DNA of 64,000 nucleotides from Burkholderia sp. WP9 (GTDB lineage: Bacteria > Pseudomonadota > Gammaproteobacteria > Burkholderiales > Burkholderiaceae), in NCBI RefSeq assembly GCF_900104795.1, contig NZ_FNTG01000002.1:682001-746000 (forward strand), given 5' to 3'. A program made the translations under genes and the position numbers. Position 1 is the stretch's first letter. The number at the start of each line of letters is the position of its first letter. The notes under the pieces are model-generated. The model saw only the letters and a program-made list of their open reading frames with translations. It was not told the DNA's origin and ran no database searches. Positions 37,264-45,022 of the stretch are shown here, piece after piece.

Positions 37264-37710
37264 TCAGCGCGCGGACGGCAACTGCCCCCATGCCACCAGC
37301 ACCTTCTGAATTCCGCGCGCATAGGCGTCGCGCTGTTTCGGCGTTTCCGAATGGTAGGCGCCGATCGCGCGCCACGTATTGCCGTGCTTGACCATCTTCT
37401 GTTTCAGCAGCCAGGCCGCCACATACACGTTCACGCACGGATCGACCAGCGCGCGATGCGGAACGCCTTCGCGCGCGAGGTCGTCGAAGTGAATCGAGTT
37501 GATCTGCAACTGACCCACGTCGATCGAGCCATTTGCGTTCTGCCGTATCGCGCTCGCGTCACCCTTCGATTCGTACCATGCGAGTGCGCGCAGCACCCAC
37601 GGATTCACGCCCTGATAAGCCGCTGCTTCGTTGAAGCAGTCGTCGGCTGCTTGCGCGGCGCCGCATACCGACAGGCAGGCAAGTGCTGAGAAGATAATCT
37701 TCAAGGACAT
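37264..37710 (-). CDS. Periplasmic lytic transglycosylase, IagB/VirB1 type
   Basis: A 148-residue exported SLT-domain protein. The start at 37710 follows AAGGA and gives a short Sec signal peptide. CFNEAAAYQGVNPWVLRALAWYESKGD contains the catalytic Glu (YES), and NGSIDVGQLQINSIHF the second motif; two cysteines probably form a disulfide. Such small enzymes make openings in peptidoglycan for secretion systems, pili or conjugation. Here it is the last of three exported-protein genes on one strand, so a related envelope machine is possible. Confidence 0.88.
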   Translation of the reverse strand: MSLKIIFSALACLSVCGAAQAADDCFNEAAAYQGVNPWVLRALAWYESKGDASAIRQNANGSIDVGQLQINSIHFDDLAREGVPHRALVDPCVNVYVAAWLLKQKMVKHGNTWRAIGAYHSETPKQRDAYARGIQKVLVAWGQLPSAR

Positions 37711-37768
37711 GACGCATCCTTCCGTTTGATAGTGATGCAGCGTGACCCGCGTCGAAGCGCCGGCCGGT

Positions 37769-38125
37769 TTATCTGGCCAACGCCAGATCGATCTGCCGTT
37801 GCACCGAGTCGAGATACGCATGCGAGGCGTCGGACACGACGATCCGCACGACCGGGGCGGGCGGGCTTCTGCGCTCCTGCGCCTGCGCCGCCACATGCGT
37901 TTTCTTTCGATGCGTTACCGGCTTCACCGGCAATTCGTCATCGCCCGTGCCCGGCGGCGGCAGCATGGCCAGCGACGGCAACGGCGGATACACCTTGTCC
38001 GCCGCGGCGGGAAACGCGCCAGCAGATTGCAGGTCCGCGCCAGGCTGTCCGGCGAAGGCCGGCGCGCTGAGGAGCATGGCCAGCGCCAGCAAAGTGATGC
38101 GAACGGTCACGGTGCCCTCCTTCAT
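37769..38125 (-). CDS. Small exported protein, proline-rich
   Basis: A 118-residue protein with a signal peptide (ITLLALAMLLSAPAFA) and a proline-rich middle (PPLPSLAMLPPPGTG), then a basic stretch and a short C-terminal segment VVRIVVSDASHAYLDSVQRQ. No family recognised. Its ATG overlaps the stop of the lipoprotein gene (ATGA), and it lies 58 bases before the lytic transglycosylase gene, so the three are probably one unit. Confidence 0.65.
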   Translation of the reverse strand: MKEGTVTVRITLLALAMLLSAPAFAGQPGADLQSAGAFPAAADKVYPPLPSLAMLPPPGTGDDELPVKPVTHRKKTHVAAQAQERRSPPAPVVRIVVSDASHAYLDSVQRQIDLALAR

Positions 38126-38487
38126 TGGACCGTCCTGATCGATACGCTATACGGCTGACCCAATCCGGCGGTGCGGTTCTCGAAGTTCACCCGGGCCGCG
38201 CGCTGTGCCGGCACGCCCTTCCACACCGCCTGATTCAGGTACGCGAAGTCCTGCCCCAGCGCCGTCACGAGAACGATTGTGGACTGCGGCTGCGCGGCGG
38301 CGAGTGCGCCCGCTTTCGCGAGCACGGTGGTCAGTTGCGGATCGCGCGCGCCGAGCGCGTCAGGCGGAATGTCGAAACTGAGCACCTCGTTCGGCGCCTT
38401 GTCCGTATGGGCCGCGCTCGGCGGCGGCATCTGGGCGCAGCCGGCGAGCGCGAACACGGCAGCCAGCAACCCTATCTGTCGCTTCAC
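38122..38487 (-). CDS. Small lipoprotein of unknown function
   Basis: About 121 residues beginning MKRQIGLLAAVFALAGCAQ, with lipobox LAGC near residue 17. A GTG start at 38487 is preferred since GGGAG lies six bases upstream; an in-frame ATG at 38508 would hide that site inside the gene. The mature part (FDIPPDALGARDPQ..., NQAVWKGVPAQRAARV) matches no family I recognise. It should be anchored in the outer membrane. First gene of the three-gene exported set. Confidence 0.65.
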   Translation of the reverse strand: MKRQIGLLAAVFALAGCAQMPPPSAAHTDKAPNEVLSFDIPPDALGARDPQLTTVLAKAGALAAAQPQSTIVLVTALGQDFAYLNQAVWKGVPAQRAARVNFENRTAGLGQPYSVSIRTVQ

Positions 38488-38635
38488 GGAAATCTCCCGT
38501 CGATTCATTGCTATAACGGAGTTTTCGGCAACGTCGAGGGAAAGTTGATACGGCGGAAACGCTTCACCGAAAATCAAAAAGACTTGTCTCAAGATCGGCG
38601 CAAACGATTGCTTCAACGCTCGGCGAAGCGAAGAT

Positions 38636-38752: not shown

Positions 38753-40564
38753 TCAGGCCGTCGGTTCGGCCTCGTGTCCTTGCGTTGCGCCCTCGCCGGC
38801 CTGCGCGTGCGCCTCGACCTGCTCGCGCCGGCGCGCTTCGAGCACATCCTGGTAACGCATATACGCGCAACGTCCGCCGGATTTAGCCGCATACATCGCC
38901 GCGTCGGCGTTGAGCAGCAATTCTTCCGCCGTGCCGCTGTCGTCGGGAAACTGGCTAATGCCGATGCTCGCGCCCACCGTCATGTTCTGCCCTTCAACCC
39001 GGACCTCTTCGTTCAGCGCCTCCATGATGCGCGCGGCGATCGCGGGCGCCGCCTCTGCCGCGCGCGGCCCTTCGATCAGCACGATGAACTCGTCGCCACC
39101 CAAACGCGCCACCAGGTCCGCGGAACAGAGCACCTGCTTCAGGCGACGCCCCACCGCGGCGAGCACCGTGTCGCCGACGGAATGGCCGAACTGGTCGTTG
39201 ATCTGCTTGAAACGGTCGAGGTCGACGAACAGCACGGCGAGGCCTTCCTCTCGCCGCGTTGCTTCCTCGATCGCGCTTTCGAGCTTCTCCATGAACAGGA
39301 CGCGGTTCGGCAGTCCGGTCAGTCCGTCATGCGTGGCGAGATGCACGAGTTCACGTTGCTTGGCGTGCAGCACGTCCATTTGCGATTTGATTTCGCGCCG
39401 CAGCCGGTCGAAGCAGCGCGCCAGCACGCCGATCTCGTCGGTCCGGTTGAGCGGCAGCGTAGGCATGGCGTGTTCGGCGAACAGATGCGTTGCCGCATGC
39501 GCGAGCATGTGCAGCGGCTTGGTCAGCGCGCGCGCGAACAGAATGGCGAGGAACAGCGCCAGCACACTGAAAATCAGCACCATGCGCACGATACTGTTGC
39601 CAAGCAGATTCGCGCCGGACAGGACGTCTTCGAGCGGCTTGGCGAGACCGAGCACGATGAAGCGGTTGCCCGCCAGATCACCGAAAGGCCTGCGCACGAA
39701 AGCGAGTACCTGGCCGGCGGCCTGCTTCGGCCGCGCAAGACCGTCCACCAGCACCTCGCCTTGCGACTGTTCGAAGAGCGGCCTCGTGACGGAGAAACTG
39801 TCCTGCATCAGCACGCGCCGGCCCCGATCGAAGCCGAAAGTTTTCGAGGCATCCGGATGAACGAGGAAATCGCCCCACTCGTTGGCGAGGTAGACCCGAT
39901 AGTCGCTCGGCAAATCGCTTTGCAGCCGTTTGAACAGCGCCTCCAGATCGATATCGATCACGACGACGCCCACCACGTCGCCATGCGCGTTCGACACAGG
40001 CGTGCCGAGCCGCAGCGTCGGCTTGCCCTGGGCTGCATGCGAGCCGTACTCATGGTTCACCGAGATCGGCGAAATGTAAATGCGGCCCGGCGCAAACGTC
40101 AGCGTGTCGAATACGTAGGCAAACTGACCTTTCTCCTGCAGGTTCTTCCCTTCGACCCGCACGAGGCCGTCCGCGTCGCGGTCGAAGCGGACCAGTTCGA
40201 GCCCATAGTGCTGGCGCGTAATCAGGCGGATTTGCAGGTACTCGAGGTGATGCACCATGAAACTGGAATACACCTGCGCCAGCCGTTCGCGGGCCGCGTT
40301 CGGGCCGACGCCGTCGTCGGTCTGCGCGATGTCCGCCGTGGACGGCATGCTCGCGAGCACCAGCGCGTCGGAGCCGACGTCGTCGATCGAGGCGGAAAAG
40401 CGCTGGCCCAGCAATTCCGTCGACGTAAGCAGGCTGCGCCCGGCTTCGTTCACGAGCATCGTGCGATTCGCACGATACGCGTAATAGCCGGTCGCGCCTG
40501 ACGCGAGCACGCCGATGCACGCGAGCAGCACGGATAATTTGAAGGTCAGCCCGGGGCGTATCAT
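38753..40564 (-). CDS. Membrane diguanylate cyclase with dCACHE sensor domain
   Basis: A 603-residue protein: membrane helix at about 8-28, a large periplasmic dCACHE-type domain to about 320, a second helix near 325-345, a HAMP-like linker and a GGDEF domain (about 420-580) with an intact RLGGDEFIVL active site. It should make c-di-GMP. The inhibitory RxxD site five residues upstream is not present (CSAD instead), so product feedback may be lacking. No EAL domain. Its ATG shares a base with the stop of the upstream binding-protein gene (TGATG), so the two are made together. Confidence 0.92.
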   Translation of the reverse strand: MIRPGLTFKLSVLLACIGVLASGATGYYAYRANRTMLVNEAGRSLLTSTELLGQRFSASIDDVGSDALVLASMPSTADIAQTDDGVGPNAARERLAQVYSSFMVHHLEYLQIRLITRQHYGLELVRFDRDADGLVRVEGKNLQEKGQFAYVFDTLTFAPGRIYISPISVNHEYGSHAAQGKPTLRLGTPVSNAHGDVVGVVVIDIDLEALFKRLQSDLPSDYRVYLANEWGDFLVHPDASKTFGFDRGRRVLMQDSFSVTRPLFEQSQGEVLVDGLARPKQAAGQVLAFVRRPFGDLAGNRFIVLGLAKPLEDVLSGANLLGNSIVRMVLIFSVLALFLAILFARALTKPLHMLAHAATHLFAEHAMPTLPLNRTDEIGVLARCFDRLRREIKSQMDVLHAKQRELVHLATHDGLTGLPNRVLFMEKLESAIEEATRREEGLAVLFVDLDRFKQINDQFGHSVGDTVLAAVGRRLKQVLCSADLVARLGGDEFIVLIEGPRAAEAAPAIAARIMEALNEEVRVEGQNMTVGASIGISQFPDDSGTAEELLLNADAAMYAAKSGGRCAYMRYQDVLEARRREQVEAHAQAGEGATQGHEAEPTA

Positions 40565-41718
40565 CAAAAACGCTCCGACCGGTCCCCGGACACGATTCTG
40601 GCCCACAGGTCCTCGCGCCGCTGAGTATTTTCCACCGGACCGATCCACACGATACGCGCGTTATCGCTGTTTTCCACGGGCGCCGTCAACGTATTGGCGA
40701 GCCCCTGGCGTTGTGTCAGCAATGCGCTGACGTCCGGTTCGAGCATGTAATTGATCCACGCGAGCGCAAGCGGCTGATCGGCCGCCGCACGTGTCATCGA
40801 CCAGCAATCCAGCCATGCGAGCGCGCCCTCGTCGGGAATCACATAGCCCACGTCGGCGCCCGCCCGGCGCAGCAACTCGACCTGCTGGGTGCCGTAGTTG
40901 CCGAACATCAACGCAACCTTATGCTGGATGAAAAACGCGGTCGCCTCCTCGGGCAACGTGTAATAGGTCAACAGATTGCGGCGCAGATCGACGAGCTTGT
41001 GAGCGATCGTGCGCATGTGCGCGGCATCGAGTTGAAAGGGATGGGAATAGCCCAGCGCCAACGCAGTGAACGAGAAATTGTGCTGCGCACTGTTGAAGTC
41101 GAGCACCTTGCCGCGGTAACGCGGATTCCACAATTCGCGCATGGAGCGCGGCGCCACGGCGACCTGCTTGCGGTCGTAGATCAAGCCCATCGACGAGTAC
41201 GTGAACGGAATGGCGTATGCCTTGCCGCCCGACGTGATGCCGCCAATCGAGGCAAGCGCCTGAAAGCGCGGCAATTGTTTTCTGGTGTTCGGCAACCTGG
41301 CGAGGTCGAGCGGCGCCAAAAGATTCGCCTCGGTATAGCGCTGGATTTCGGCGGTATTGGCGGCGAGCACGTCGAAGGGCGGCGTCCCTTTCGCATGCAT
41401 CTGCGCCCATAGCGCCTCGTCGGAATCGACCAGCGTGACTTCGACGCGGGCCTTGTAACGCGCCTCGAAACGCTTCACCACGTCGGCGTCAGCGTAGCCT
41501 GGCCACGCGAGCACGCGCAGGACGTTGTCGTCGGCTTTAACCGGCGCGGCCGCACAAAGGCCGACGGAAAAAACCACGCCGGGTAGAAATGTCAAAAGTC
41601 CCAGACAAACGCTGCGACACAATAAATAGGCGCGCGCAAACACGCCGATTCGTGATTGAAAGAATCGTTTACAAACGCGCTTTTCATCTGCCGCAAACAT
41701 TATGTGCATATACAACAC
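40564..41718 (-). CDS. PotD-like periplasmic binding protein paired with a diguanylate cyclase
   Basis: A 384-residue solute-binding protein of the spermidine/putrescine type. After an unusually long N-terminal region with a hydrophobic signal segment, the mature part begins near DDNVLRVLAWPGYADADVVKRFE. WLDCW in the second lobe corresponds to the WMD region that holds polyamine in PotD, while the acidic residue of the first-lobe motif (WTEY in PotD) is missing (WPGY). No permease or ATPase gene is near. It is translationally coupled to the GGDEF gene, as NspS is linked to MbaA in Vibrio cholerae. ATGs at 41709 and 41700 are possible alternative starts. Confidence 0.88.
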   Translation of the reverse strand: MLYMHIMFAADEKRVCKRFFQSRIGVFARAYLLCRSVCLGLLTFLPGVVFSVGLCAAAPVKADDNVLRVLAWPGYADADVVKRFEARYKARVEVTLVDSDEALWAQMHAKGTPPFDVLAANTAEIQRYTEANLLAPLDLARLPNTRKQLPRFQALASIGGITSGGKAYAIPFTYSSMGLIYDRKQVAVAPRSMRELWNPRYRGKVLDFNSAQHNFSFTALALGYSHPFQLDAAHMRTIAHKLVDLRRNLLTYYTLPEEATAFFIQHKVALMFGNYGTQQVELLRRAGADVGYVIPDEGALAWLDCWSMTRAAADQPLALAWINYMLEPDVSALLTQRQGLANTLTAPVENSDNARIVWIGPVENTQRREDLWARIVSGDRSERF

Positions 41719-42876: not shown

Positions 42877-43659
42877 GTGAAAAAACTGCTAGCGGCTTTG
42901 ACGGTTGCTCTGCTTGCTACCGTCTCGATTGGCGCACACGCTAAAGATTGGTCGACCATCCGTTTCGGCGTTGACGCCAGCTACCCCCCGTTTGAGTCGA
43001 AGGGCTCGGACGGCAAGCTCGTTGGCTTCGATATCGACCTCGGCAATGAAATCTGCGCGCGCCTGAAGGCCAAGTGCGTGTGGGTCGAAAACGACTTCGA
43101 CGGCATGATCCCGGCCCTGAAGGCGAAGAAGTTCGACGGCGTGCTGTCGTCGATGTCCATGACGCCGCAACGCGCCGAGCAGATCGCTTTCTCGAACAAA
43201 CTGTTCAACACCCCGACGCGCCTCGTGGCGAAGAAGGGTTCGGGCATCCTGCCGACGGCCGACTCGCTCAAGGGCAAGACGGTTGGCGTGGAACAAGGCA
43301 CGATCCAGGAAACGTACGCGAAGACGTACTGGGAAGCGAAGGGCACGAAGGTCGTGCCGTATCAGAACCAGGATCAGGTCTACGCCGACTTGCTGTCGGG
43401 CCGTCTGGACGCAGCGCTGCAAGACGCAGTGCAAGCTGAAATCGGCTTCCTGAAGACGCCGCGCGGCGCCGGCTTCGACTTCGTCGGCAAGAACCTCGAC
43501 GATCCGAAGATCCTCGGCAACGGCGCAGGCATCGGCATGCGCAAGGAAGACACCGATCTGAAAGCGAAGGTCGACAAGGCAATCGCCGACATCATCAAGG
43601 ACGGTACGTACAAGAAGCTCGAGAAGAAATACTTCGACTTCGACGTGTACGGCGGCTAA
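42877..43659 (+). CDS. Amino-acid ABC transporter binding protein, HisJ/ArgT type
   Basis: A 260-residue periplasmic binding protein (SBP_bac_3). Signal peptide ends near GAHA; the mature part starts KDWSTIRFGVDASYPPFESK, with LVGFDIDLGNEICARLK, MIPALKAKKFDGVLSSMSMTPQRA and VGVEQGTIQETYA, all typical of lysine/arginine/ornithine/histidine binders. AGGAG lies before the start. No permease or ATPase follows; instead there is a strong terminator and an M14 deacylase gene. Confidence 0.92.
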   Translation: MKKLLAALTVALLATVSIGAHAKDWSTIRFGVDASYPPFESKGSDGKLVGFDIDLGNEICARLKAKCVWVENDFDGMIPALKAKKFDGVLSSMSMTPQRAEQIAFSNKLFNTPTRLVAKKGSGILPTADSLKGKTVGVEQGTIQETYAKTYWEAKGTKVVPYQNQDQVYADLLSGRLDAALQDAVQAEIGFLKTPRGAGFDFVGKNLDDPKILGNGAGIGMRKEDTDLKAKVDKAIADIIKDGTYKKLEKKYFDFDVYGG

Positions 43660-43700
43660 GCTGGCCATGCGCGTCTGACGACGCGCCCTGCCGGTTTGCA

Positions 43701-43733
43701 GAAACGGGCTCCGCCACAGGCGGAGCCCGTTTC
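43701..43733 (+). terminator. 15-base perfect stem terminator
   Basis: GAAACGGGCTCCGCC (43701-43715) and its complement (43719-43733) enclose a three-base ACA loop and are followed by ATTT. It lies 41 bases after the binding-protein stop. Confidence 0.9.
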
Positions 43734-43906
43734 ATTTACAGCGCCGCATAAAACCACACACTGCGTCATATCGGCTAAGATCGTGCGATCGAGGCGCCCG
43801 CAAAGCGCCGCCCGCCGGCCCGAGACTGACCGGCTATCAAGCAAGTTTCCCCACTGTTATCAACGAGATAGCGCGGCACGCCCAGTTGGCCGCGGATTTG
43901 AAAACC

Positions 43907-45022
43907 ATGCAAACCCAAACCCATCCGCTGATTGCTCCGACGCTCGGCACCGCCCGCAACCTGACGAGTTTCCACTACGGTCCGGGCGGCGGCCAGAAGA
44001 TTTACATCCAGTCGTCGCTGCATGCCGACGAGCTGCCCGGCATGCTGGTCTCGTGGGCACTGCGCCGCAAGCTGACGGCGCTGGAAGCGGCCGGCAAGAT
44101 TCGCGGCGAAGTCGTGATCGTGCCGGTGGCCAATCCGATCGGCCTGAATCAGCACTTTCTCGGCCATCTGACCGGGCGTTTCGAAACCAACACGGCCCAG
44201 AACTTCAACCGCAATTTCCACGATCTGTCGGCGCTGGTGCAGCCGGTGATCGAGTCGCGCCTGACCGACAATCTCGACGCAAACCGCACGGCGATCCGCA
44301 CGGCCATGCGCGAGGCGCTCGACGCGCAAACGCCGCAGACCGAACTCGAATCGCAGCGCCTCGCGCTGCAAAAGCTTTCATACGACGCCGACGTCGTGCT
44401 CGATCTGCATTGCGACTGGGAAGCGGCGATGCACCTCTACACGAACCCGGACCTGTGGCCGGAAGTCGAGCCGCTCGCCTGCTACCTGGACGCCAAGGCA
44501 TCGCTGCTCGCGCTCAATTCGGTGGGCAATCCGTTCGACGAAATTCACAGCTTCTGCTGGTCGGATCTGCGTGGCCGCTACGGCGACCGCTTCCCGATTC
44601 CGAACGGGTCGATCTCGGTCACGATCGAACTGCGCGGCCAGCGCGAAGTGTCGTACGAGTACGCCGAGCATGATGCGCAGGCGATCATCGAATACCTGAC
44701 CTCGCGTGGCGTGATCGACGGCACGGCTGCCGCGCTGCCGCCGCTCGAATTCGCCGCCACGCCGCTCGCCGGCGCCGAGCCGATCGTCGCACCGATCAGC
44801 GGCGTGCTGGTGTATCGCTGTGAAGTCGGCACCTGGGTCGACGTGGGTCATGAGATCGCCGATATCGTCGATCCGCTGACGGAGCAAGTCGTCACGCTCA
44901 AGAGCAGCGTGGCCGGCGTGCTGTACGCACGGCATTTGACGCGCTTTGCGACGGCCGGTCTGGAATTCGCGCGCATTGCCGGTGCGAAGGCGTTCCGCAG
45001 CGGCTCGCTGCTGAGCAACTAA
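43907..45022 (+). CDS. M14-type succinylglutamate desuccinylase/aspartoacylase family protein
   Basis: A 371-residue zinc-dependent deacylase. Zinc ligands are His and Glu in SSLHADELPG and His in VLDLHCDW; NFNRNF supplies the Arg-containing substrate motif, and TIELRGQ the catalytic Glu. The last 100 residues (APISGVLVYRCEVGTWVDVG onwards) resemble a biotinyl/lipoyl-like barrel found in this subgroup. It should remove an acyl group from an amino-acid derivative. ATG at 43907 is chosen; its neighbour is an amino-acid binding protein. Confidence 0.85.
   Translation: MQTQTHPLIAPTLGTARNLTSFHYGPGGGQKIYIQSSLHADELPGMLVSWALRRKLTALEAAGKIRGEVVIVPVANPIGLNQHFLGHLTGRFETNTAQNFNRNFHDLSALVQPVIESRLTDNLDANRTAIRTAMREALDAQTPQTELESQRLALQKLSYDADVVLDLHCDWEAAMHLYTNPDLWPEVEPLACYLDAKASLLALNSVGNPFDEIHSFCWSDLRGRYGDRFPIPNGSISVTIELRGQREVSYEYAEHDAQAIIEYLTSRGVIDGTAAALPPLEFAATPLAGAEPIVAPISGVLVYRCEVGTWVDVGHEIADIVDPLTEQVVTLKSSVAGVLYARHLTRFATAGLEFARIAGAKAFRSGSLLSN

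Follow-up and report, generated by a model that had tools for sequence, protein, structure and literature searches.

INTRODUCTION

Several described systems join a periplasmic substrate-binding protein (SBP) to a membrane signalling protein. In LuxP-LuxQ and ChvE-VirA a sugar- or signal-binding SBP acts on a periplasmic sensor domain, dCACHE-like in LuxQ, and in ScrB-ScrC of Vibrio parahaemolyticus a periplasmic SBP acts on a GGDEF-EAL membrane protein. dCACHE domains also often bind small ligands directly. For ScrB-ScrC, one paper on swarming is cited in PMC9602780, and the text of PMC8846402 gives SBP_bac_3 as the only one of 27 PBP-clan families studied in cyclic di-GMP (c-di-GMP) networks. 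For NspS-MbaA the norspermidine contacts of NspS are predicted to be W41, D70, D90, F131, Y233, D236, W261 and D263, and MbaA of both Vibrio cholerae and Sinorhizobium meliloti lacks the RxxD inhibitory site; the survey of nspS-mbaA pairs used at least 30% identity and at least 60% coverage, and the main text of that paper contains no instance of the name Burkholderia (PMC9993111). Many diguanylate cyclases (DGCs) have unknown inputs.

We describe an SBP gene coupled to a DGC gene in 64,000 nucleotides of Burkholderia sp. WP9 (contig NZ_FNTG01000002.1, positions 682,001 to 746,000; the whole stretch is called the window). A sequence-only reading had proposed that the pair is possibly a polyamine-to-c-di-GMP module. 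We read it as an SBP-gated DGC that is independent of NspS-MbaA and derives from a sugar/aldonate-type transporter SBP, and put the probability of this overall reading at about 0.48. In the literature searched, which was incompletely covered, no recognisable description of a Burkholderia SBP-DGC pair was found.

RESULTS

The gene pair. The SBP gene (40564..41718; 384 aa, probable start at 41709; PotD/PotF fold, SBP_bac_8) lies directly upstream of the DGC gene (38753..40564; 603 aa from its ATG), both on the minus strand, as are all features given below. SBP stop and DGC start have one base in common within TGATG (40562..40566), a gene arrangement of the NspS-MbaA type, for which an overlap or a gap of up to 20 bp was accepted, and no transporter or catabolic genes were seen beside the pair at the window. 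The DGC consists of a transmembrane segment, a dCACHE sensor domain on the periplasmic side (roughly residues 35-324; 39593..40462), a second transmembrane segment, a HAMP-like segment that falls under the Pfam cutoff (residues 342-392; 39389..39541) and a GGDEF domain (residues 410-565; 38870..39337) whose motif is intact at residues 489-493. In the structure model (pLDDT 86.4) the sensor forms a two-module Cache fold following a long N-terminal helix and matches dCACHE structures 2p7j and 3lid. The catalytic residues expected of an active DGC are conserved, with D448, N456, D457 and K561 among the invariant columns. A domain scan found no EAL domain in the window DGC. The sequence-only reading had thus described the pair correctly in its one-base overlap, its lack of adjoining transporter genes, its large periplasmic domain and its GGDEF output without EAL. 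A promoter and terminator scan gave nothing above chance.

Conservation and linkage. The SBP-DGC module is real and conserved. SBP family members were counted at E <= 1e-40, with the own genome included in every count. By this threshold they occur in 16 of 40 relatives and in 71 of 299 genomes of the taxonomic family (5 of 25 genera); the order sample gave 22 of 300 genomes and the phylum sample 15 of 398. In genome searches the SBP family is discrete, its weakest member scoring 7.1e-57 and the next match only 1.7e-29. The class sample (369 genomes) gave 12 matches at 1e-25, among which the own genome alone reached 1e-40. In the Vibrio-type genus introduced below, 4 of 61 genomes carry SBPs of the window family (L144, L207, L208, L209), and this genus thus holds both SBP kinds.

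Linkage was scored as a sensor-region match within the SBP +/- 1.5 kb stretch at 78 SBP loci. A match was present at 57, and at 42 of 42 Burkholderiaceae loci, bearing out the conservation that the sequence-only reading had proposed to check; the 21 loci without a match comprise nine orphan SBPs from other families of the order, six ABC-transporter-type loci and six distant SBPs. We read 36 pairs in full, the window pair among them. With the DGC start set at the candidate closest to the SBP stop, the overlap is 1 or 4 bases in 29 and the spacing is different in five; two (L112 and L139) were unparsed for both overlap and RxxD, with GGDEF seen in each. RxxD is kept in 21 of the 36 and absent in 13, window included, where C-S-A-D (39116..39127) stands in its place. 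This absence looks, from the sequences compared, like a lineage-specific loss, which would free c-di-GMP output here from one of its brakes. The sequence-only reading was correct that the site is missing; as a distinction from MbaA the absence was rejected, since both lack RxxD. Two partner proteins (L123 and L136; 845 and 1027 aa) carry an EAL-like motif by pattern; the EAL regular expression also matches L105 and L138, which at about 570-607 aa we take as chance. GGDEY replaces GGDEF in the partners of L119, L120 and L121.

At one locus (L126:2791-6780) a gene for a methyl-accepting chemotaxis protein (MCP; MCPsignal found, HAMP under cutoff) stands directly ahead of the SBP-DGC pair, as if chemotaxis and c-di-GMP could share a single SBP. 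Other families of the order have orphan SBPs that belong to the same clade, show the same pocket and lack an adjoining DGC (L127-L129, L131-L134); an exporter-like ABC open reading frame (ORF) lies downstream at L131 and an MCP-like ORF at L127. L130 was excluded from trees and counts (alignment failure). We searched the nine orphan-SBP genomes for an unlinked partner DGC: four (G372, G027, G448, G365) had no match at 1e-6, and the other five gave weak sensor matches (6.5e-12, 9.4e-12, 1.4e-11, 2.4e-8, 3.8e-7) inside large open frames. PF21623 was found in all three proteins scanned (two of these five and one from G382), which marks it as a general sensor domain, and the weak matches are therefore unconvincing as partners.

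Co-variation. Over 37 pairs, SBP distances correlate with sensor distances at r=0.97. With column number matched, the correlation is 0.87 between SBP and GGDEF domain and 0.86 between sensor and GGDEF domain of the same protein. This pattern is that expected from SBP-sensor contact, as far as sequence distances can tell, and differing GGDEF-domain rates could contribute. We judge it quite probable that the SBP gates the window DGC.

Probable separation from NspS-MbaA. Fourteen regions from the genus of one gammaproteobacterial match yielded eight NspS-like SBP loci; we take the genus to be Vibrio from gene order, the neighbours resembling pheA and raiA. Each of the eight SBP genes overlaps a gene whose product is an SGDEF protein of 778-784 aa that also shows an EAL-like motif, and Pfam confirmed both GGDEF and EAL in the one MbaA scanned. 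One NspS row has the published contacts at the published numbers, and none of the eight rows has lost any of the eight contacts. A second NspS-like SBP also occurs in this genus (L204:1408-4878, L205:3935-7408), with a partner of 800-812 aa and a different acidic pocket; the L205 partner has GGDEF and EAL by Pfam, and a motif script did not find the canonical GGDEF motif in partners of the L204/L205 type.

Window SBP identity is 17-20% to three NspS rows (median 17 over all eight) and 21% to PotD. The trees are quick ones, with seven loci thinned out of the first and two more long-branch rows out of the second; among seven other Pot-like matches of the own genome, L002-L005 were used, L006 and L008 were excluded as poorly aligned, and L007 was not located. 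GGDEF-linked and orphan SBPs, the window SBP among them, form a clade of 39 rows (SH-aLRT 99). This signalling clade together with alphaproteobacterial ABC SBPs makes a group of 48 rows (support 98 and 99.6 in the two trees), and NspS is a separate branch. Joining NspS and the signalling clade was rejected (p-AU 0.0033, 73 rows). The ABC group as a clade of its own was neither supported nor rejected (p-AU 0.238), and we therefore call the ABC SBPs nearest to the signalling clade rather than calling the latter nested inside them. The sensor is not detectably related in sequence to that of MbaA: hhalign gave a probability of 8.5 over the first 115 residues only, with no detectable match beyond. 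On identity, tree, topology test and contact residues (below), all against the Vibrio-type NspS rows, NspS orthology was rejected as a matter of descent, and descent as an NspS-MbaA variant, which the sequence-only reading had favoured, is not supported. A separate origin of the module is highly probable.

The pocket. For comparison with PotD we used 11 of its spermidine contact positions. There the window SBP matches PotD at 5, NspS at 3 and the ABC SBPs at 10. PotD E36, Y85, D168, E171 and W229 are all replaced, E36 by G within the first-lobe motif W72-P-G-Y75 (41494..41505; PotD WTEY, NspS WEDT), D168 by S210 and E171 by H213 within the second-lobe motif N209-S-A-Q-H-N214 (41077..41094; PotD DDAREV), and W229 by N in N274-Y-G276 (40891..40899; PotD W229-N-G). 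N121-T-A-E124 (41347..41358) corresponds to STYY in PotD, DNVS in NspS and NTAQ in the ABC relatives, and W302-L-D304 (40807..40815) is retained from PotD (W255, D257). The loss of the first-lobe acidic residue and the retention of WLD were thus seen rightly from sequence. At the eight NspS contacts the window SBP is identical at three (W72, W302, D304), with E101 conservative for D70 and N, N and T replacing D90, Y233 and D236. Over 13 pocket positions the median number of acidic residues is 2 in the window SBP, against 6 in NspS, 4 in PotD and 3 in four Pot-like SBPs of the own genome. The window SBP missed the NCBIfam equivalog cutoffs for PotF (74.4 against 636) and PotD (65.8 against 582). 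A signature of W-G-Y, N-T-A, H-N, N-Y-G and W-L-D is common, with few exceptions, to GGDEF-linked, orphan and ABC members. Most polyamine contact residues are replaced (5 of 11 identical to PotD, 3 of 8 to NspS). We would abandon the polyamine reading unless ligand-binding measurements speak for it again.

Transporter-linked relatives. The nearest transporter-linked relatives of the window SBP are alphaproteobacterial ABC SBPs (Mesorhizobium, Rhizobium, Kaistia). A pocket comparison covered 56 ABC rows and 59 DGC-linked rows, with at least four loci per group entered twice; the window is identical to the ABC rows at a median of 10 of the 11 PotD contact positions (range 8-10), at a median overall identity of 41%. 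Operons were read in the best 80 loci among the matches listed in a named collection (575 relatives), chosen by ABC-type likeness and so no census. Downstream of the SBP lay an ATPase in 51 of these (33 of them Mesorhizobium), a DGC in 20 and neither in nine, permeases following in six of the nine. At L255, L256, L257, L260, L261 and L264 two permease genes come after an ABC-type SBP gene, with no ATPase-query match at the usual place.

Near the 51 ATPase-linked SBPs we found an arabinonate-dehydratase-like IlvD/EDD gene at 48, a xylose-dehydrogenase-like short-chain dehydrogenase (SDR) gene at 50 and GguC at 47; the same queries matched none of the 20 DGC-linked loci, some of which are on short contigs. 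One ABC-type relative (L145) has none of the three genes nearby. By NCBIfam the ABC operon proteins passed for GguC/AraD1 (488, cutoff 340) and missed for L-arabinonate dehydratase (857, cutoff 882) and D-xylose 1-dehydrogenase (352, cutoff 400). Such operons point to an oxidative route for breaking down pentoses or pentonates, and a pentose or an aldonate is therefore the probable cargo of the ABC SBPs. The window SBP clusters with these SBPs of pentonate-type operons, and hence with the sugar/aldonate ABC lineage. L146 is a further ABC-type locus. Distant ABC relatives (L166-L168), whose pockets differ, adjoin RbsD/FucU, altronate-dehydratase-family, mandelate-racemase-family and SMP-30/gluconolactonase genes. 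The fold neighbourhood of the window SBP includes solved binders of mannopine, glucopinic acid and agropinic acid, and a structure titled glucose-6-phosphate-binding protein.

Neighbouring genes. At window 42877-45022 a gene for an ArgT-like SBP precedes one for an AstE/AspA-like deacylase. A small cluster past the DGC gene (37264-38508) comprises two ORFs without a Pfam match, one lipoprotein-like and one short and secreted, and an SLT transglycosylase.

DISCUSSION

In the mechanism that we propose, a secreted SBP would capture a periplasmic ligand and, closed around it, dock on the membrane-bound DGC at its dCACHE domain; the movement, relayed through HAMP, would set GGDEF activity, with either activation or inhibition as the response. 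The enzyme would have no built-in c-di-GMP hydrolysis and, in this lineage, no product inhibition at RxxD. The SBP would have come from the sugar/aldonate-type ABC-transporter lineage, recruited to c-di-GMP signalling apart from NspS-MbaA, and from this descent the likely ligand would be no polyamine but a polyhydroxy compound such as a pentose or pentonate. The odds that the ligand is of sugar or sugar-acid type seem to us close to even. Somewhat more speculative is the fuller picture of a widespread and apparently undescribed class of SBP-gated DGC that turns plant-derived periplasmic pentoses or sugar acids into c-di-GMP, recruited independently from a sugar-acid ABC transporter and left with unbraked output by loss of the inhibitory site in Paraburkholderia-type lineages.

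Several observations weigh against a straight transfer of ligand from the transporters. E124 stands for Q in 58 of 59 DGC-linked SBPs, while 55 of 56 ABC rows have Q; P73 stands where ABC SBPs have D, E or Q in 55 of 59, and N209 where they have D in 45 of 59. Of the 8 NspS positions, the window SBP shares 5 with the ABC rows. Such systematic pocket-side changes suggest, from residues compared, that the window ligand may differ from that of the ABC SBPs. A different cationic ligand had already been suggested from sequence; that the ligand differs is probable, but nothing shows that it is cationic.

In an alternative that we think unlikely, architecture and mechanism are as proposed but the SBP binds some other compound with an amine or a carboxylate, such as an opine-like or GABA-like molecule or an amino sugar. 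E124, which replaces Q of the ABC relatives, and D304 could hold an amine, and mannopine, agropinic-acid and GABA binders occur in the fold neighbourhood. Against this, the remaining PotD contact positions have the residues of SBPs from pentonate-type operons. Less likely again, the SBP may not regulate the DGC at all, serving a distant ABC transporter or persisting as a relic while the dCACHE domain senses its own ligand. The direct ligand binding common among dCACHE domains would allow this, as would the nine orphan SBPs and the ABC ATPase ORFs found in 5 of 7 own-genome regions around other Pot-like SBPs; the constant pairing in Burkholderiaceae and the overlap in most pairs argue against it, as do sensor distances that track the SBP more closely than the sensor's own GGDEF domain, and the 20 DGC-linked loci, where the permease query found no match and the ATPase query one (L288, 2.8 kb off, on the other strand). 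A diverged NspS-MbaA-type polyamine sensor that makes but does not degrade c-di-GMP has the fold, W72, W302, D304, E101, the gene order and overlap style and the shared lack of RxxD in its favour, and is the least probable reading given the low identity to NspS, the rejected joint clade, the exchanged contacts and an MbaA that has EAL and a sensor not detectably related.

If the proposed reading is true, the switch between sessile and motile life in Burkholderiaceae and other beta- and gammaproteobacteria gains a defined input of nutrient type, and capture of transporter binding proteins by c-di-GMP enzymes would have occurred more than once. It also puts right an annotation error that is easily made: spermidine/putrescine names stand on several database entries for close relatives.

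Among known systems, the ABC transporters of IlvD-SDR-GguC operons hold the closest transporter-linked kin of the window SBP, alike at 10 of 11 PotD contact positions, but have their own ATPase, permeases and pentonate-type catabolic genes, and their SBPs carry Q at E124 and D, E or Q at P73. LuxP-LuxQ and ChvE-VirA differ from the window pair in their histidine kinase output and in SBPs of other families, and ScrB-ScrC has ScrA and an EAL domain. NspS-MbaA shares with the window a PotD-type SBP gene overlapping that of a membrane c-di-GMP enzyme, and the lack of RxxD in that enzyme, but its SBP belongs to another clade (p-AU 0.003) with another pocket, its sensor sequence shows no detectable kinship, and MbaA has SGDEF and EAL where the window DGC has GGDEF only. 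The window module resembles NspS-MbaA or ScrB-ScrC in outline but is no member of NspS-MbaA.
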